DNA of 64,000 nt from Siphlonurus alternatus. Taxonomy: Eukaryota; Arthropoda; Insecta; Ephemeroptera; Siphlonuridae. Position numbers and translations under genes: made by a program. Location: positions 26,810,773 to 26,874,772 of the forward strand of contig OX463782.1 in assembly GCA_949825025.1 (NCBI GenBank), given 5' to 3'. Under the pieces are notes generated by a model. It was not told where the DNA came from, ran no database searches, and was given only the letters and a program-made list of their open reading frames with translations. Positions 6,458 through 13,708 of the stretch are shown here, in pieces. The stretch's first letter is position 1; every line of letters starts with the position of its first letter.

Positions 6458-7729
6458 CTGGAACAAGGAACAGGTACACTTACGTTAGTCAAACCATATT
6501 ATATAAATTGAGTTGGTAGTTAATTGTATTGAGAAATCACATTTATAAAACTAAGGCATAATAAACTACTAAGACACATATTTCTTTTGTTTGGGTGATT
6601 TAAATTTTATATATATTTCAAATATATACACTATATATTATATAGAATAATATAGAGCATCTTAAGGAGCTACGAGATTCTATAATAGATAAGATTAAGA
6701 ATTAGAATTCTTAGCCACTATTTATTGCAATAATGCCACCAAACACTATAAATAAAATTACTCTAGATCTGTATTTTTTTATTAGTATAATTGTTAAAGA
6801 GAGAACTCTTGCAGTAATTTTGGAACGCTGGTTGAATAAATTTTCCAGTCCGACAAACATCAAGGATACTTAAAAAAGGGTTGTGCAATCTACTCAGCTC
6901 TTAAACCGCTTTATGGAAAGAATAAAAAAGTGTTTGCCACAAATTTATTGATTACTTTTCGTGGTTTCGCAGGTGCTAGGCAGCTAATTTTTCCCACGGA
7001 CCAATATTGTTTACACCAGCGAAGTGAGAGGAGAAAAAAAAAATGTTCACAGCTAAAATTAGACTACATTATAATTATATGAAAAAGTTTTTTTTTTTCA
7101 GAAAAATGTCGTAAAGAAAAGTAAGTAAGAAATAATTATATTAGTTCGGTGCAGAGAAAATACCACCAATCTGAACCACAGATATAATTGTATTATGAAG
7201 TTGATCAAGGCATGAAAAAACTTATAAAAATGGCAATATGTAAATAACAATTAATTGATTCTCTCGTATATTTTCAAAACTGTTTTTTTTTTTAAGTATC
7301 ACATCTTTTATTTTAAACATATTAGGCGTTATCTGTAATGCGATATAATAATAATAATATTTTTATTCAATCATTGGTTGTACAATACAACATAAATCAC
7401 GTCATTATATATATATATATAACTTATAGTCTAAAACATGAAAATAAATAGAACCCTCTTATCATTTAATATATTGTACATATTTCGTCAGTAAAAACAA
7501 AAAAAAAAAAAGTGGAGAAAAAATATCACAATTACACTATTTTATAAGGCAACCAGATTTGTAACCGCGGTTAGTGTAAGTTAGACTGACATAATTAACC
7601 ATGGTTAGTGAGACCTGGTTGTTGATCATCCTTTAATAGCCATTATACCTAAGTGTGAGTTATTATACTTTTATTATGATCATGAGGTAGGTGGTACCTC
7701 TTTTATTATGAGGTAGGTGGCAGCACCTG
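6458..7729. other. Intronic sequence upstream of the LINE insertion
   Basis: AT-rich intron of the beat-like gene with short (TA)n and poly(A) tracts. At 7563-7620 there are fragments TAACCGCGGTTAGTG and TTAACCATGGTTAGTG, followed by GACCTGGTT. These resemble the inner motifs of the foldback elements at 22.3 and 23.3 kb. At 7664-7730 an imperfect tandem of TTTTATTATG and AGGTAGGTGG lies just before the retrotransposon ORF1 and may already belong to its 5' end. Confidence 0.4.
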
Positions 7730-7925
7730 AGAGCTTAACTACAATATTTTCACTGCTCCGTAATTTTTAAAGATTAACCTTTTTATCTATCATTTAATTA
7801 AAAAGAAAGTCTGTTCATCGGAAAGTTGAAGTTTTTTTCTATTAAGTGATACATTACTACTAAGTGTCCTGTGCATTGAACTTTAAATATAAAGGTGTGA
7901 TAAATATTCTCTTGAGAACAACATC

Positions 7926-10262
7926 ATGACGGACCTACGCTCCATGCGTGCTACACCTCAGTTCTGCTCTCCGCTCGTACCACACTGGCCGCCACCTGCT
8001 AGAACTACACCGGAGGTTTTTAACTCACAATTTATTAATTATGATAAAAATAATTCTGATATACATATGTCCAATGAAAGCCTATCAAATGATCTGACTG
8101 TACATCCAATGTACAAATTAATTCAACATAATATTAAGGACTTATTTACTGACTTTAGAGAAGAAATTAAATGCACTATTAAATTAATGTTAAATGAAAG
8201 AAATGGAATTTCTTCTGCAAATAACTTTAATAATGAGGGAAATTCAAATCATCAATGTCATATACAAACAGCTGATTATGACAGGTCACCAGTTCAATTC
8301 TCGCGACCTTGGAGGACGGCTGGTTACACAAAACAACGCCCACCTCAGCCGACGTCGTTCACTAGAGTGCCACAGCAGCAGCAGCAATCACGCCAGCAGC
8401 AGCAGCAACAATCTGAGCAATCACGCCAGCAGCAGACACGCCGGCAGCACGTTGTAAGTCAGTATCAACCTCGTCGCCCGCTCCAACACCAACTGAGCGC
8501 TCAGCGACCGCACCCTACCCAGCTGCCGCGCCAAAGCCAGGGTGCCCAATTGCGGCCCCCAAGACCTCCTTATAATCCGTGGGGTGCGACAGTACCAACA
8601 TCAAACTCATTTTCAGTACTACAACATATTAATAATGAGTCTTTTCCGACTTTACATCAGAAAAATACCAATAACCATAATATAAAAAGAAAACATCAAA
8701 ATTTCCGTTTCATTGAAAAGAAAGGAAATTTGTTTGACGCACCACCAGGCACATCCTACGCCCACTGCGTTGATAAAACATTTAAACAAGGACGTGGAGT
8801 TGCAACTCAATTTAAAAAAAAACATGGACAAACCCCTTTTTTAAAGAGTCAACTCAAAAATACTGGTGAAGTAGCTGTTTTATCTTCAGATGACAGTTTT
8901 ATTTTCTACTTAGTTACTAAATCTGTCCATAACAGCTATCCTGACCACTCAAATATACTACTTGCATTAAAAAATTTAAGAAATATCTGTGAGATTTTAA
9001 GTATAAAAAAACTCGCAATTCCTCGTTTAGCATGTGGCAGAGACGGTTTCAACTGGTCTACTATAAAACAAGACATTATTTCAGTGTTCAAAGATCTTGA
9101 CATTGAAATTGTTGCTTATTATGGATGGAAGACATTAGCAAAGAAAGTTGCAAGTAATGATGATGAAACAGCTGTTAAAGAACTCTTTGAGGAATCAGCC
9201 CAATCTACTCTAGCAAACGTCATTACCGCTAGGGCCCCTCCTTCTAATAACCTGGCGGTCCTTGTAAGTTCCGGGCAATGCCAGACCTCTACCTTGCGAG
9301 AGAGTACCCGCCCCTCAATTGTCACGCCTGACATAGTGAGGGTGGAGGGACTGCCAGTGCCAGCCACGAAGGAGCAGATGTCTAATACCCGGGGCGAGAA
9401 GTCAGGCCTCGCTCAGGTGAACGACGGTACCACCCCGGGCGAGGAGTCAGGCCTCGCTTCGGTGAACGACGGTACCACCCCGGGCGAGGAGTCAGGCCTC
9501 GCTTCGGTGAACGACGGTACCACCCCGGGCGAGGAGTCAGGCCTCGTTTCGGTGAACGACGGTACCACCCCGGGCGAGGAGTCAGGCCTCGCTTCGGTGA
9601 ACGACGGTACCACCCCGGGCGAGGAGTCAGGCCTTGCTCCGGTGAACGACGGTACCACCCCGGGCGAGGAGTCAGGCCTCGCTTCGGTGAACGACGGTAC
9701 CACCCCGGGCGAGGAGTCAGGCCTCGTTTCGGTGAACGACGGTACCACCCCGGGCGAGGAGTCAGGCCTCGCTCCGGCGAACGACGGTATTGCCCCGAGT
9801 GAGGAGTCAAGTCTTGTTTTGGTAAACAATAGTTTGCCTGAATCAGGACCACCCTTACCAGATCCTGTATGTTCTCTTGAATTGAATCAAGATATTATAG
9901 ATCTGAACTCATTACATCCAAGACTCAAAGCTTTTTTACTAACGATTTTAGATAATAAATTCCAATTTACAAATGATCTATTAAAAAATGATGAAACCGC
10001 TGCTAAGAAAAGTGCAATTAATTCAGAAAAATCAATTAATGAAATTTCATCTGTTGTCTCACCATCCATTATTAGTAAAAATGATACTATTAATGATAAT
10101 GTTTTGAGTTCAAATGTTGATAATTTTAATCTGGCATCTCAATTGAAATCCCCCATTAAAAATTCTCAGGAAGATACACAATCTTCCCCTGTGAGATCAC
10201 GGCTCCGTGCCAGTACACTAAACAGTATCTCCACCAAATTGCCCAACAAAAAAAAAACTTAA
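7926..10262 (+). CDS. LINE ORF1 protein with TARG1/OARD1-like macrodomain and 15-residue tandem repeat
   Basis: A 778-residue protein. Residues about 60-93 may be helical. Residues 148-175 are Gln/Ser/Arg-rich, and 176-220 are Pro/Arg/Gln-rich and basic, plausibly RNA-binding. Residues about 258-401 form a macrodomain: KGNLF (266-270), AHC (279-281), GRGVATQFKKK (289-299), GEVAVL (314-319), FYLVTK (327-332) and IPRLACGRD (365-373). These align in order with human TARG1/OARD1, which hydrolyses ADP-ribose from glutamate. Lys332 and Asp373 fall at the TARG1 catalytic positions Lys84 and Asp125, and Asn268 replaces the ligand-binding Asp. Residues 501-620 are eight near-identical 15-mers of the type GTTPGEESGLASVND, with degenerate copies on each side. 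The C-terminus is Ser/Asn-rich. No CCHC knuckle is visible, unlike typical jockey-like ORF1. I infer an RNA-binding chaperone or packaging role; ADP-ribose hydrolase activity is a prediction. Confidence 0.88.
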   Translation: MTDLRSMRATPQFCSPLVPHWPPPARTTPEVFNSQFINYDKNNSDIHMSNESLSNDLTVHPMYKLIQHNIKDLFTDFREEIKCTIKLMLNERNGISSANNFNNEGNSNHQCHIQTADYDRSPVQFSRPWRTAGYTKQRPPQPTSFTRVPQQQQQSRQQQQQQSEQSRQQQTRRQHVVSQYQPRRPLQHQLSAQRPHPTQLPRQSQGAQLRPPRPPYNPWGATVPTSNSFSVLQHINNESFPTLHQKNTNNHNIKRKHQNFRFIEKKGNLFDAPPGTSYAHCVDKTFKQGRGVATQFKKKHGQTPFLKSQLKNTGEVAVLSSDDSFIFYLVTKSVHNSYPDHSNILLALKNLRNICEILSIKKLAIPRLACGRDGFNWSTIKQDIISVFKDLDIEIVAYYGWKTLAKKVASNDDETAVKELFEESAQSTLANVITARAPPSNNLAVLVSSGQCQTSTLRESTRPSIVTPDIVRVEGLPVPATKEQMSNTRGEKSGLAQVNDGTTPGEESGLASVNDGTTPGEESGLASVNDGTTPGEESGLVSVNDGTTPGEESGLASVNDGTTPGEESGLAPVNDGTTPGEESGLASVNDGTTPGEESGLVSVNDGTTPGEESGLAPANDGIAPSEESSLVLVNNSLPESGPPLPDPVCSLELNQDIIDLNSLHPRLKAFLLTILDNKFQFTNDLLKNDETAAKKSAINSEKSINEISSVVSPSIISKNDTINDNVLSSNVDNFNLASQLKSPIKNSQEDTQSSPVRSRLRASTLNSISTKLPNKKKT
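8697..9128 (+). other. Macrodomain-coding segment of ORF1
   Basis: Codons for residues about 258-401 of ORF1. Key sites: predicted catalytic Lys332 at 8919-8921 and Asp373 at 9042-9044. The glycine-rich phosphate-binding loop corresponds to GRGVATQFKKK. The segment is uninterrupted and keeps the AT-rich codon use of the rest of the element, so it does not look like a fresh, GC-different host insertion. Marked separately because it is the distinctive part of the element. Confidence 0.85.
9384..9830 (+). repeat. 45-bp coding minisatellite within ORF1
   Basis: Eight near-identical 45-bp units occupy 9426-9785, with a degenerate copy before and after. Each encodes one 15-residue unit of the GTTPGEESGLASVND type. 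Units differ mainly at the two codons after Gly-Leu (Ala-Ser, Val-Ser or Ala-Pro). The order is AS, AS, VS, AS, AP, AS, VS, AP, which hints at duplication of multi-unit blocks. The array is far more GC-rich than the surrounding ORF. Because the unit is a multiple of three, two antisense frames stay open; these are shadows. Confidence 0.95.
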
Positions 10263-13200
10263 TGTTCAGGTTCACTCAGCCCCATGTAATATTAAAATTC
10301 TTCAGCTTAACTTACCAGGCCTAAAAAATAAATTACCAAAATTTGAGTATTTTCTTGAAATGGTTGATTGTGATATAATTATATTATGTGAACATGGGCT
10401 GAATGAATCTGAAATTATAACAATAAATTTTAAAAATTTTATGATAGTTTCATATTACTGTAGAGATATTCAAAAATGTGGGGGAGTAGTAATTCTATCT
10501 CGTAAAGGTTCAAATATAAATGATATTAAAATAAAATCCATTGAATCAGTTTTTGAATGCTGCATAGCGAAATTAGTAATTAACAATACAACAAACATTT
10601 ATTTTGCTTCTATATATCGCCCACCTAATATATCTAGAGTGATGAAAAAAATTCAGAATTTTGACAACACAGAAAATAATATAAAACCATTCTTAAAAGA
10701 ATTTGAAATGTTATGCAAAAAATTAATTAAATACTGTAAAAATAATGATGATTTTTTTATTATTGCGGGTGACGTAAATCTTAATTTATTTATTGATGAT
10801 GCAAATGTAATTTTATATAAAGATATACTGGACTCATACAAGTTGGAAATTGTTAATAGTTCCGCTACTAGAGAAACAATGAAAACGGCTACTTTAATTG
10901 ATCATATTATTAAAAGTACATCTGCTATTAATACTAATTATAAAACTGAAAAAACAACTCTGTCGGACCATAACTATACTATAGTCACAATAACATTAAA
11001 TAACTCGAAGAACATTGATAAAATACAAGAAAAACAATTTTATTATAAACGAATATTTGACAAATGCAATTTAGATAATTTTCTGCTCCTATTAATTCGT
11101 GAAGAATGGAATGATTTATTAAATCCTGATCTCAATTCAAATGAGAGATGGTCAAAATTTCTTGAAATTTTTATTTATCATTTCAACGAGGCTTTTCCTG
11201 TTGTTAAAAGAAAAATTTCAAGTAACAAAAATAAACCTTCCTGGATACTCAATAACCCCCATCTTTACGAACAAGGGATTTCTTTAAAACGCTTACACTA
11301 TGATGTAAAATTTACTGACCCAAATTTAGAGTCTACTTATAAAAAAGAAATGAAATCTTATAAACAAAATATGGCCACCGCTAAATTTAAAGAGAATGAC
11401 CATGAAATAAAAGGAGCTAATAATAAAATTAAAGCTACGTGGAATATAATTAATAAAGAATGCAAAACAAAGAAAACAAATGTTAATAATAAGAATAATT
11501 ATGAATTATGTATAAATAGTGTAACGATTACAGACCCCAAACTAATTTGCAATTTATTTAATAATTTTTTTGTCAAGACAATTGAAAATATAATAACAGA
11601 AAAATTTCCTTTTAATTATTCTAATACTTTAATTATTGTCGATTCTGATAAAAGTAAAACGAAATTAAATTTTAGTTCGATAGACCCGATTTATATTTTA
11701 AATCGAATGAAATCCCTTCCTAATAAGTATGCAGCTGGCCCAGACGAAATACCATATACTGTTGTAAAATATTGTGCTTCTGTTTTGTCTGTCCCTTTAT
11801 CTAATTTAATTAACCATTCAATATCAGATGGTATATTTCCTGATTGTTTAAAGGATTCTAAGATTTATGCAACTCATAAAAAAGGCCCAACTTTCATTAT
11901 TGATAATTACAGACCAATATCAAATACATCTGTTTTTGGCAAATTATTTGAGAATACATTAGACGATCAAATTACGGATTATCAAACAGAAAATCATTTA
12001 ATTGCTCCCTGTCAACATGGATTCTTGAAAGACCGTTCTACTGATACAGCACTATTTGATCTTTTAAGCCACGTTTATATGGCAATAGATAATAAACTAT
12101 TTTGCGTTGCAATATTTTTTGATTTATCTAAAGCGTTTGATAGTCTAAATAAAGATGTATTATTGAATAAATTTGATAACATGGGAATAGGAGTTTCGAG
12201 TCGTAATCTATTAGATTCATATCTAACTAACAGACAACAATATGTTGAATTAAATTCAAATTCTAACGGCCAAAATATTACATATAAATCAGACAAATTA
12301 CCGATTACACTTGGAATTCCTCAAGGAGGAAAAATGTCAGCCACATTGTTTAATACAGGAACAAATGACTTATCAGATCATGTCAAGAATGCGGTATTAG
12401 TAAAGTATGCTGATGATATTACAGCTATAATCACAGCAGAAGCCGAAGATGAATTAATTCGTAAGATTAAACTTACTATTGAAGAGGTACATACATGGTG
12501 TACAAATAATAAGCTAATATTAAATTCAACTAAAACCGAATACATCCAATTTCATTCCCCTAGACAAATCCCTTTGAATAGTTATTTGTTGCAATTAGCC
12601 GGGAAAACAATTAAAAGAGCAGAGTCTGTTAAGTTTCTTGGTCTACACATTAATGAAAGTTTGGATTGGTCTTTACATGTAAATGCGATTTGTAAGAAGA
12701 TAAATTCGGCCAATTTTATGTTATATACAATCAGGAATCATGTATCTCATGAAACCTTGCTAACCATATATTATGCGTATGTTTATCCACATTTGGCATA
12801 TGGCATAATAAATTGGGGATGTAAATCGGAACTATTGAATCGATGTTTTGTTTTGCAAAAGAGAGCACTTAGAACGATTTTAAGAATACCAAAAGGACAG
12901 TCGTGTGTTTCACATTTTAAGGCTAATAAAATGTTAACTGTCCCTTGCATTTATATTTTAAATTGTGCCTCATTCAAAAAAAATCATCCAAATTTTTATG
13001 TTCAGAATGATGGCTATCATGACTATAATACTAGGAATAAATCGAATGTAGTTACTGAAAGACATAACACACAATTTTTCAAAAACTGTGCAATGTATCA
13101 AACAGCAAAATTTTATGAATTTTTACCAGCATGTTTGAAAGAAATAAAAACCAGTAAACTTTTTCGTACAAAATTAAAGAATGTATTGATCAATAAAGAG

Positions 13201-13263
13201 TTTTACTCTATTAAAGCTTTTGAGAGTAATAAAATGTCTGAAAAAGTATTATCAGGATTATAA
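10222..13263 (+). CDS. LINE ORF2: APE-type endonuclease and reverse transcriptase
   Basis: The first ATG in frame is at 10360 and gives 967 residues, but the open frame continues upstream to 10222. It encodes [10 protein letters not shown] just before that ATG, which is the first strand of an APE endonuclease with its conserved Asn. So the true protein probably begins upstream. Counting from the 10360 Met: endonuclease at about 1-215, with SIYRPP (84-89), GDVNLN (137-142), IDH (180-182) and SDH (202-204); RT at about 450-730, with FFDLSKAFD (586-594), GIPQGG (652-657) and the catalytic YADD (683-686). A C-terminal region follows with FLGLHI and the HDYNTRNKS motif common in jockey/CR1-like ORF2s. 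It nicks target DNA and primes cDNA synthesis from the 3' end. It overlaps the end of ORF1 by 41 bases in another frame. No internal stop is seen. The motif after GIPQGG (KMSATLF) departs from the usual SVLGPLLF. Confidence 0.92.
10248..10264 (+). promoter_or_regulatory. ORF1/ORF2 junction: A10 run and TAATG
   Basis: ORF1 ends at TAA 10260-10262. A run of ten A lies at 10248-10257 within the stretch where both ORF frames are open (10222-10262). Moving from the ORF1 frame to the ORF2 frame needs a +1 (or -2) shift. The stop also overlaps an ATG (TAATG, 10260-10264), but that ATG's frame closes at 10322-10324. How ORF2 is translated is therefore unresolved: slippage on the A run, a non-AUG start, or an indel in this copy. 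Confidence 0.5.
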
Positions 13264-13302
13264 AATAAACAAAATTATAAATTTACATATACATTGTATT
13301 GA

Positions 13303-13446
13303 CTGATATATATATATGTATGTATGTGTATATATACATATGTGTATGTGTGTGTATATGTGTATGTGTATGTATATATATATATATATATATGTATATA
13401 TGTGTGTGTGTATGTGTATGTATGTATGTATATATATATATGTATG

Positions 13447-13479
<33 letters not shown>

Positions 13480-13481
13480 GT
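13303..13481. repeat. (TA/TG)n microsatellite in the LINE 3' UTR
   Basis: Alternating TA and TG/TATG repeats occupy most of 13303-13481, starting about 40 bases after the ORF2 stop. Open frames across it are low-complexity Tyr/Ile/His or Val/Cys readings with no meaning as proteins. Confidence 0.9.
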
Positions 13482-13708
13482 TCCACATAAACTAAAATTT
13501 ATCAGTATTAATGGTGACTTTGGCTTGTATTTTGTTTTTATTATTATTGTCAGTGATTGTGTTTGATAGTGTTAAATGACTTATGTAAATGTGTTTAAGT
13601 TTGATGTTTTTATGTTGTATTTTGTCCAATTTTGACTTGAACATATGTTTGTCTTGTACAACCAAAAAGAAGTTCCAAAATAAAAATAAATAAATAAATA
13701 AATAAATT
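13482..13708 (+). other. LINE 3' UTR and (AAAT)n tail
   Basis: Unique sequence follows the microsatellite and ends in AAAATAAAAATAAATAAATA and further AAAT units (about 13675-13708). A short tandem A-rich tail is typical of non-LTR elements of the jockey/CR1/RTE kind. Sequence beyond about 13710 returns to ordinary intron. Confidence 0.75.

Follow-up and report, generated by a model that had tools for sequence, protein, structure and literature searches.

PARP-type ADP-ribosylation works at nicks and in antiviral defence. Human TARG1 (OARD1, C6orf130) has a length of 152 aa. It is a free-standing host enzyme (PDB 4J5Q, 4J5R and 4J5S) and removes ADP-ribose from glutamate and aspartate, from thymidine in single-stranded DNA and from the terminal phosphates of DNA and RNA (among other sources, PMC9411070). 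In the same paper, the DarG macrodomain of the bacterial DarTG system is described as having kept the catalytic lysine but not the aspartate. TARG1-like macrodomains are also found in selfish elements, namely in viruses (Kadipiro virus VP8, iridoviruses and thrips-associated virga-like viruses), and the esterase and PHD-finger first open reading frames (ORF1s) of CR1/L2 elements are cases in which a foreign ORF1 domain was kept in a whole subgroup of retrotransposons lacking long terminal repeats. The survey of 448 Jockey-superfamily elements by Metcalfe and Casane (2014; PMC4120745) distinguishes five ORF1 types and tabulates RRM, CCHC, transposase 22, PHD, esterase, coiled coil and zf/lz, and 'macro' occurs 0 times in its main text. 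Here, a long interspersed nuclear element (LINE) was analysed whose ORF1 carries a TARG1-type macrodomain. It lies in a stretch of 64,000 nucleotides of the mayfly Siphlonurus alternatus (assembly GCA_949825025.1, contig OX463782.1, positions 26,810,773 to 26,874,772 of the forward strand), which as a whole is called the window.

A macrodomain of this type with both catalytic residues had been proposed for ORF1 in an earlier interpretation of the letters without database searches (the sequence-only reading). The features concerned are the following:

7926..10262, plus strand: ORF1, 778 aa, coordinates including the stop codon
8697..9128, plus strand: TARG1/OARD1-type macrodomain, ORF1 residues 258-401, from profile, sequence and fold matches
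8919..8921, plus strand: codon of Lys332, aligned with TARG1 Lys84
9042..9044, plus strand: codon of Asp373, aligned with TARG1 Asp125

The limits of ORF1 were exactly as proposed, and so were the places of the two residues and their alignment with TARG1. The comparison with TARG1 by phmmer gave 95.2 bits (E 3.9e-26), and the Pfam Macro family was matched with 25.2 bits (E 1.6e-5) by the isolated domain and with 21 bits, at a cut-off of 22, by the whole ORF1. The anticipated structural match was significant, with TARG1 chains at all of ranks 1 to 8 in Foldseek (best E 6.2e-17) and the six TARG1 entries listed by VIA-align at ranks 1-6. A chance motif match was rejected on these E-values and fold matches, and the ORF1 domain is confirmed as a TARG1-type macrodomain with the catalytic dyad. 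Both residues are present in 25 of 25 LINE macrodomains (the window, the database protein P0001 and 23 from the same genome), so that they have been lost in none of these, and the 21 aligned macrodomain rows show no variation at G43, A45 and G66 (human numbering). Pfam Macro misses the ORF1 of subfamily L033 despite 57% domain identity to the window, the scanned range having begun one codon late and ended on a stop.

Unlike TARG1, the LINE domain is embedded in ORF1 between a basic linker on its N-terminal side and an acidic repeat on its C-terminal side; its identity to the DarG macrodomain is 23-25%. The viral domains, which belong to viruses and not to retrotransposons, reach at most 36% identity among the 50 matches listed and are likened to it by fold only. 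By fold, Kadipiro virus VP8 comes first among them, then thrips-associated RNA viruses and, further down, iridoviruses.

The genome holding the window (455,680,777 bases in 102 contigs) was searched for further copies, and all match counts are lower bounds. With the window macrodomain as query, 150 of 315 candidates were scored; 66 of these, window included, are at least 99% identical over the whole domain, 146 have no in-frame stop, and at least one (L038) sits outside LINEs. The macrodomain of L037 yielded 150 scored matches of 314 candidates, with many subfamilies absent from the window-query list, and the reverse transcriptase (RT) of the window's second open reading frame (ORF2) yielded 106 of 5528, all 106 at 100% identity. 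The domain is thus not limited to one copy, as had been envisaged as a possibility. The first 29 other copies of the window-query macrodomain match list are 99.80-100% identical to the window in DNA (element compared up to 10646), and because of this identity the family is taken to be very young; the window element is a very young LINE copy, very recently amplified. Similarity ends at 7700-7714 in 23 of the 29 (exactly at 7714 in 6 of those), and the other 6 begin at 7729-8677. In 18 copies checked at both ends the flanks differ, and all share an A-rich 3′ tail that consists mostly of (AAAT)n. Many near-identical copies share an ORF1 frame that is open for 789 codons from stop to stop, and outside the tandem repeat of ORF1 the 29 copies differ from the window by 28 synonymous and 6 nonsynonymous codon changes, of which 1 synonymous and 0 nonsynonymous changes fall in the macrodomain. 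No relatives were returned by one scan each of viral contigs and of genome contigs.

Beyond the near-identical copies, the domain occurs in a whole clade. P0001, an independent full-length ORF1 of 710 aa from the protein database, shares the layout and both catalytic residues, and its identity to the window ORF1 is 73-77% in the domain, 34-60% in the other parts and 55% overall. The sister subfamilies comprise seven with ORF1 and ORF2 (L031-L037), twelve further ORF1s (L039-L050), and L069, L070, L071 and L074, which are three further subfamilies with both frames and one broken piece. Domain identity to the window is approximately 38-77%, and the layout is the same in the ten sister subfamilies followed through ORF2, which is interrupted in L036 and L069. 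In an alignment of 19 ORF1s, from which L049 and L050 were left out as their frames are cut short, 15-column stretches in which 30% or more of the columns are conserved in three quarters of the rows are confined to the macrodomain, which is the only ORF1 part conserved across the subfamilies aligned. Trees of ORF2 were calculated for 8 subfamilies with 60 and for 11 subfamilies with 40 external ORF2s, drawn from 120 listed relatives; in the latter, the ORF2s of the 11 macrodomain-carrying subfamilies form one clade (Shimodaira-Hasegawa-like approximate likelihood ratio test, SH-aLRT, 100) against the external LINEs.

Because the subfamilies had been found through the macrodomain, a search was also begun from ORF2. 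With the RT of L037 as query, 111 of 4671 candidates were scored, 47 of them in open frames of at least 990 codons, and a macrodomain from the two match lists is located 2-4.5 kb upstream in 32 of these 47. Of the remaining 15, one sits at a contig edge; the upstream DNA of the other 14 contains no whole macrodomain, that of L087 being broken off inside the domain. In 12 of these 14 the 3′ part of the ORF1 of a macrodomain-carrying subfamily is kept, mostly with 95-100% identity to the nearest (L087 58% overall), and L081 and L086 consist of ORF2 alone, L086 being 98.5% identical to L031 and L081 63% identical to L070. The 14 copies look 5′-truncated, and no lineage without a macrodomain was found inside the clade among the scored RT matches. 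A weak macrodomain match at L090 (28% identity, E 1e-4, opposite strand) was taken for chance. The macrodomain is almost certainly fixed in the clade.

Selection on the domain, for which the sequence-only reading had suggested the ratio of nonsynonymous to synonymous substitution rates (dN/dS) as a check, was estimated by NG86 for 16 pairs of subfamily copies, in 12 of which a domain value was computable. As approximate figures, domain dN/dS is 0.050-0.120 in 10 of the 12 pairs (the two closest pairs have 0.151 and 0.251), compared with 0.34-0.78 over all pairs in the flanking rest of ORF1, and it lies below both flanks in all 11 pairs with both flanks measurable. This pattern points to strong purifying selection on the macrodomain, the strongest constraint in ORF1. 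A decaying passenger domain was rejected on the selection pattern together with the conservation in P0001. A chance transduction, or the recent capture of a functionless exon in one copy or family, would have had a source at hand, as the same genome has non-LINE TARG1-type macrodomains (L038, L072, L073, L075 and L076). Such an event is practically discounted by the domain's presence in many subfamilies and in the independent P0001, by its having the strongest constraint in ORF1 and by its position upstream of most long-frame ORF2 copies (32 of 47); the one-copy form was rejected on the many near-identical copies and many subfamilies bearing the domain.

The closest named relatives outside the genome are insect TARG1-type proteins (Hermetia, Macrosteles) and human TARG1. 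Within it, six TARG1-type macrodomains stand in frames without LINE features (L038, L072a, L072b, L073, L075 and L076) and are called host-type here, a working label given without working out gene structure. Five of the six keep both catalytic residues and L072a has lost both; L072 is a frame with two macrodomains in tandem, of which L072a is the first. The simplest reading is a capture from the host TARG1 family, and the one clade formed by the ORF2s in the tree favours a single capture long ago, with vertical inheritance since then. Several TARG1-like proteins were seen in the beetle Callosobruchus maculatus (P0142, named a C3H1-type protein in its source, P0144, P0145, P0151 and P0152) and two TARG1-like macrodomain proteins in the leafhopper Macrosteles (P0128 and P0129); these may represent a further mobile family that has captured a macrodomain.

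Judged from fold, catalytic residues, selection and presence throughout the clade, the LINE very probably encodes an ADP-ribosyl hydrolase that is active and strongly selected, in agreement with the sequence-only reading that the element carries such an enzyme of its own, and confidence in the predicted activity as such is high. The best overall explanation, which is considered probable, is a clade with an ORF1 built on a host-derived TARG1-type hydrolase that would clear ADP-ribose for the element. As in TARG1, Lys332 as nucleophile and Asp373 would open the ADP-ribose bond. The ORF1 protein (ORF1p) would coat the element RNA via its basic linker and so bring the hydrolase to the ribonucleoprotein (RNP) and to the nicked target, where ADP-ribose set by host PARPs would be stripped from glutamate and aspartate of RNP proteins or from nucleic-acid ends, and with it gone the element could prime, synthesise cDNA and use its RNP again without being blocked. 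The benefit is likely to act in cis. PARP1 and PARP2 act at LINE-1 integration sites (PMC8535693), and groups of the kind that TARG1 acts on are expected where the endonuclease nicks and the RT primes; the nicked target and the cDNA/RNA ends are only tentatively preferred as the main site of action, and the cytoplasmic RNP, against PARP defence, is rather unlikely to be that site. It is equally tentative that ORF1p was rebuilt around an active TARG1 domain and that retrotransposition is tied in this way to host ADP-ribosylation signalling during target-primed reverse transcription. The findings suggest a parasite that uses an enzyme to survive or to exploit DNA-damage or defence signals.

Because viruses have TARG1-like domains, the main rival is a cytoplasmic counter-defence, in which the hydrolase would reverse marks of host mono-ADP-ribosyl transferases on ORF1p, the ORF2 protein or the element RNA in the manner of viral macrodomains. 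In BFVD the top match is VP8 of Kadipiro virus (34% identity, TM score 0.93), numerous viral genomes have TARG1-like homologues, of which few retain all essential residues (PMC4245714), and strong purifying selection fits such a role; the domain is nevertheless the slowest-evolving part of ORF1 and does not show arms-race turnover, and this alternative is regarded as unlikely. Macrodomains generally bind ADP-ribose, and the invariance of G43, A45 and G66 would also suit a domain that reads the mark and tethers the RNP to PARP-activated nicks or chromatin, with catalysis merely releasing it. Merely reading the mark would not call for Lys84 or Asp125, but all 25 LINE domains have kept the two, unlike DarG, which keeps only the lysine, and ALC1 homologues, which have glutamine there (PMC9411070); a reader role is improbable. 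The basic character of the window macrodomain (isoelectric point, pI, 9.4) and the lack of RRM and CCHC in the ORF1s scanned would be accounted for if it served solely as an RNA-binding module in place of the usual RRM, which is very improbable, as it leaves the invariance of the catalytic dyad unexplained.

Several points weigh against the explanation by a host-derived, clade-wide hydrolase acting for the element. The dN/dS figures are rough because of synonymous saturation and overlapping pairs: synonymous sites of the domain are near saturation (proportion of synonymous differences, pS, 0.57-0.71 in 10 of the 16 pairs and higher in four), 4 of the 16 pairs yield no domain dS, and dS in the flanks frequently falls below that of the domain, which is not fully explained. 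The enzymatic activity is deduced from conservation, and no RNA-binding domain was recognised in the ORF1s scanned. Human cells that have lost PARP1 or PARP2 show less LINE-1 retrotransposition (PMC8535693), and for this reason removal of ADP-ribose could also harm the element. Carrying a macrodomain proves nothing for the subfamilies of the trees, which were found by way of it, and presence throughout the clade was read from the window genome and P0001. The ORF1 of the L081 subfamily is not inferable because the ORF2 of L081 is only 63% identical to the nearest, and one RT copy (C62) lies at a contig edge. Host-type macrodomains group only loosely with those of the LINEs, and L075 and the database proteins P0124 and P0125 fall across the groups of the tree. 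In approximately unbiased (AU) tests, a single clade of LINE macrodomains had p values of 0.349 (tree with 15 of 32 macrodomain protein relatives) and 0.144 (10 of 32), the relatives being hand-chosen, and the tests fit one capture as well as several; one clade of LINE and host-type macrodomains had p 0.064 in the second tree, which does not contain L040, a near-copy of L039. Another macrodomain comparison comprised 29 of the 32 protein relatives, with P0144, P0151 and P0152 left out.

In titles and abstract openings of the open-licence PMC literature, a scope outside which Repbase and subscription journals lie, no LINE with a macrodomain was found described; 'macro domain' in PMC5434184 belongs to the name of the gene MACROD2. 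The element is a LINE whose ORF1 has captured an enzyme, and as far as that literature goes the enzyme class has not been met there before. It adds an enzyme class to the captured domains of LINE ORF1s and a non-viral parallel to the viral macrodomains. PARPs are reported as host factors of LINE-1 integration (PMC8535693), and here the retrotransposon may control the modification itself. The clade, with its intact and strongly constrained hydrolase domain and very recent activity, offers a natural setting for testing the control of ADP-ribosylation with a single point mutation.

The remaining features of the element are:

7714..13708, plus strand: full-length LINE copy, 5′ end at approximately 7711-7714, 3′ end an AAAT-type tail
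7714..7925, plus strand: 5′ untranslated region, from the 5′ end common to copies to the ORF1 ATG
8106..8201, plus strand: long helix predicted for ORF1 residues 61-92 with low confidence (AlphaFold2, two rows)
8211..8696, plus strand: basic Q/R/P-rich linker, ORF1 residues 96-257, pI 11.7, charge approximately +15
9387..9809, plus strand: 45-bp tandem repeat, 9.4 copies, an acidic 15-aa protein repeat in ORF1
9846..10025, plus strand: C-terminal ORF1 segment with two predicted helices (residues approximately 641-700), low-confidence model, 55% identity to P0001
10222..10262, plus strand: overlap of ORF1 and ORF2, which use different frames; ten consecutive A directly precede the ORF1 stop
10222..13263, plus strand: ORF2 open frame, first ATG at 10360, 967 aa counted from that ATG
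10288..10990, plus strand: apurinic-type endonuclease region of ORF2, by homology, limits approximate and set by eye
11875..12651, plus strand: reverse transcriptase domain (RVT_1), Pfam E 1.8e-30 to 4.9e-30
13264..13708, plus strand: 3′ untranslated region with a TA/TG microsatellite at 13306-13479 and the terminal (AAAT)n tail

The LINE context that had been read from the letters was borne out by the 967-aa ORF2 with RVT_1, the AAAT-type tail and the 5′-truncated sister copies; the RT, the dispersed 5′-truncated copies, the common tailed 3′ end and the differing flanks identify the element as a LINE. No convincing target-site duplication was found in the window copy or in the 18 copies checked, the longest shared word being 12 bases in one copy, away from the element ends. 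The motif GAGGTAGGTGG occurs twice, 25 bases apart (window 7685-7720), just outside the element and at its start. The conserved endonuclease N-terminus of ORF2 lies upstream of the ATG at 10360, within the frame open from 10222. The endonuclease was assigned by homology, as the best ORF2 homologues, aligned over 98% of the query, bear PF14529/PF03372; the Pfam scan of the window ORF2 gave no endonuclease match, and among sisters PF14529 was matched in L035 (2.4e-7) and not in L034.

In ORF1, helix 61-92 is possibly a multimerisation segment according to the model, the mean predicted local distance difference test (pLDDT) score of the full-length model (AlphaFold2, two rows) being 33. The basic linker is the candidate nucleic-acid-binding part, and the corresponding part upstream of the macrodomain is not basic in L037, L049 and L050. 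RRM, CCHC, PHD, esterase and transposase 22 had no Pfam match in six ORF1s (window, P0001 and L033-L036), and the CCHC pattern was absent from 20 LINE ORF1s scanned. Residues 487-630 have a charge of approximately -26. A repeat similar to that of the window is found in L031, and other repeats at the same ORF1 part in L033, L044 and L049; because these differing repeats sit in the same part, the spacer appears to expand repeatedly.

The frames of ORF1 and ORF2 also overlap in all seven sister subfamilies compared (L031-L037). A run of at least six A stands just before the ORF1 stop in five of the seven, L034 having a short run and L037 one approximately 14 bases further upstream. Relative to ORF1, ORF2 is in frame +1 in the window and L031-L033 and in frame -1 in L034-L037, and its expression through frameshift or reinitiation is possible. 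Two observations were made at other copies: a long array of short repeats (FNSIQ in translation) fills L080 1-2100 beside a 5′-truncated LINE copy, and the genomic copy G000:C3:50095660 has one open frame of 1783 codons.

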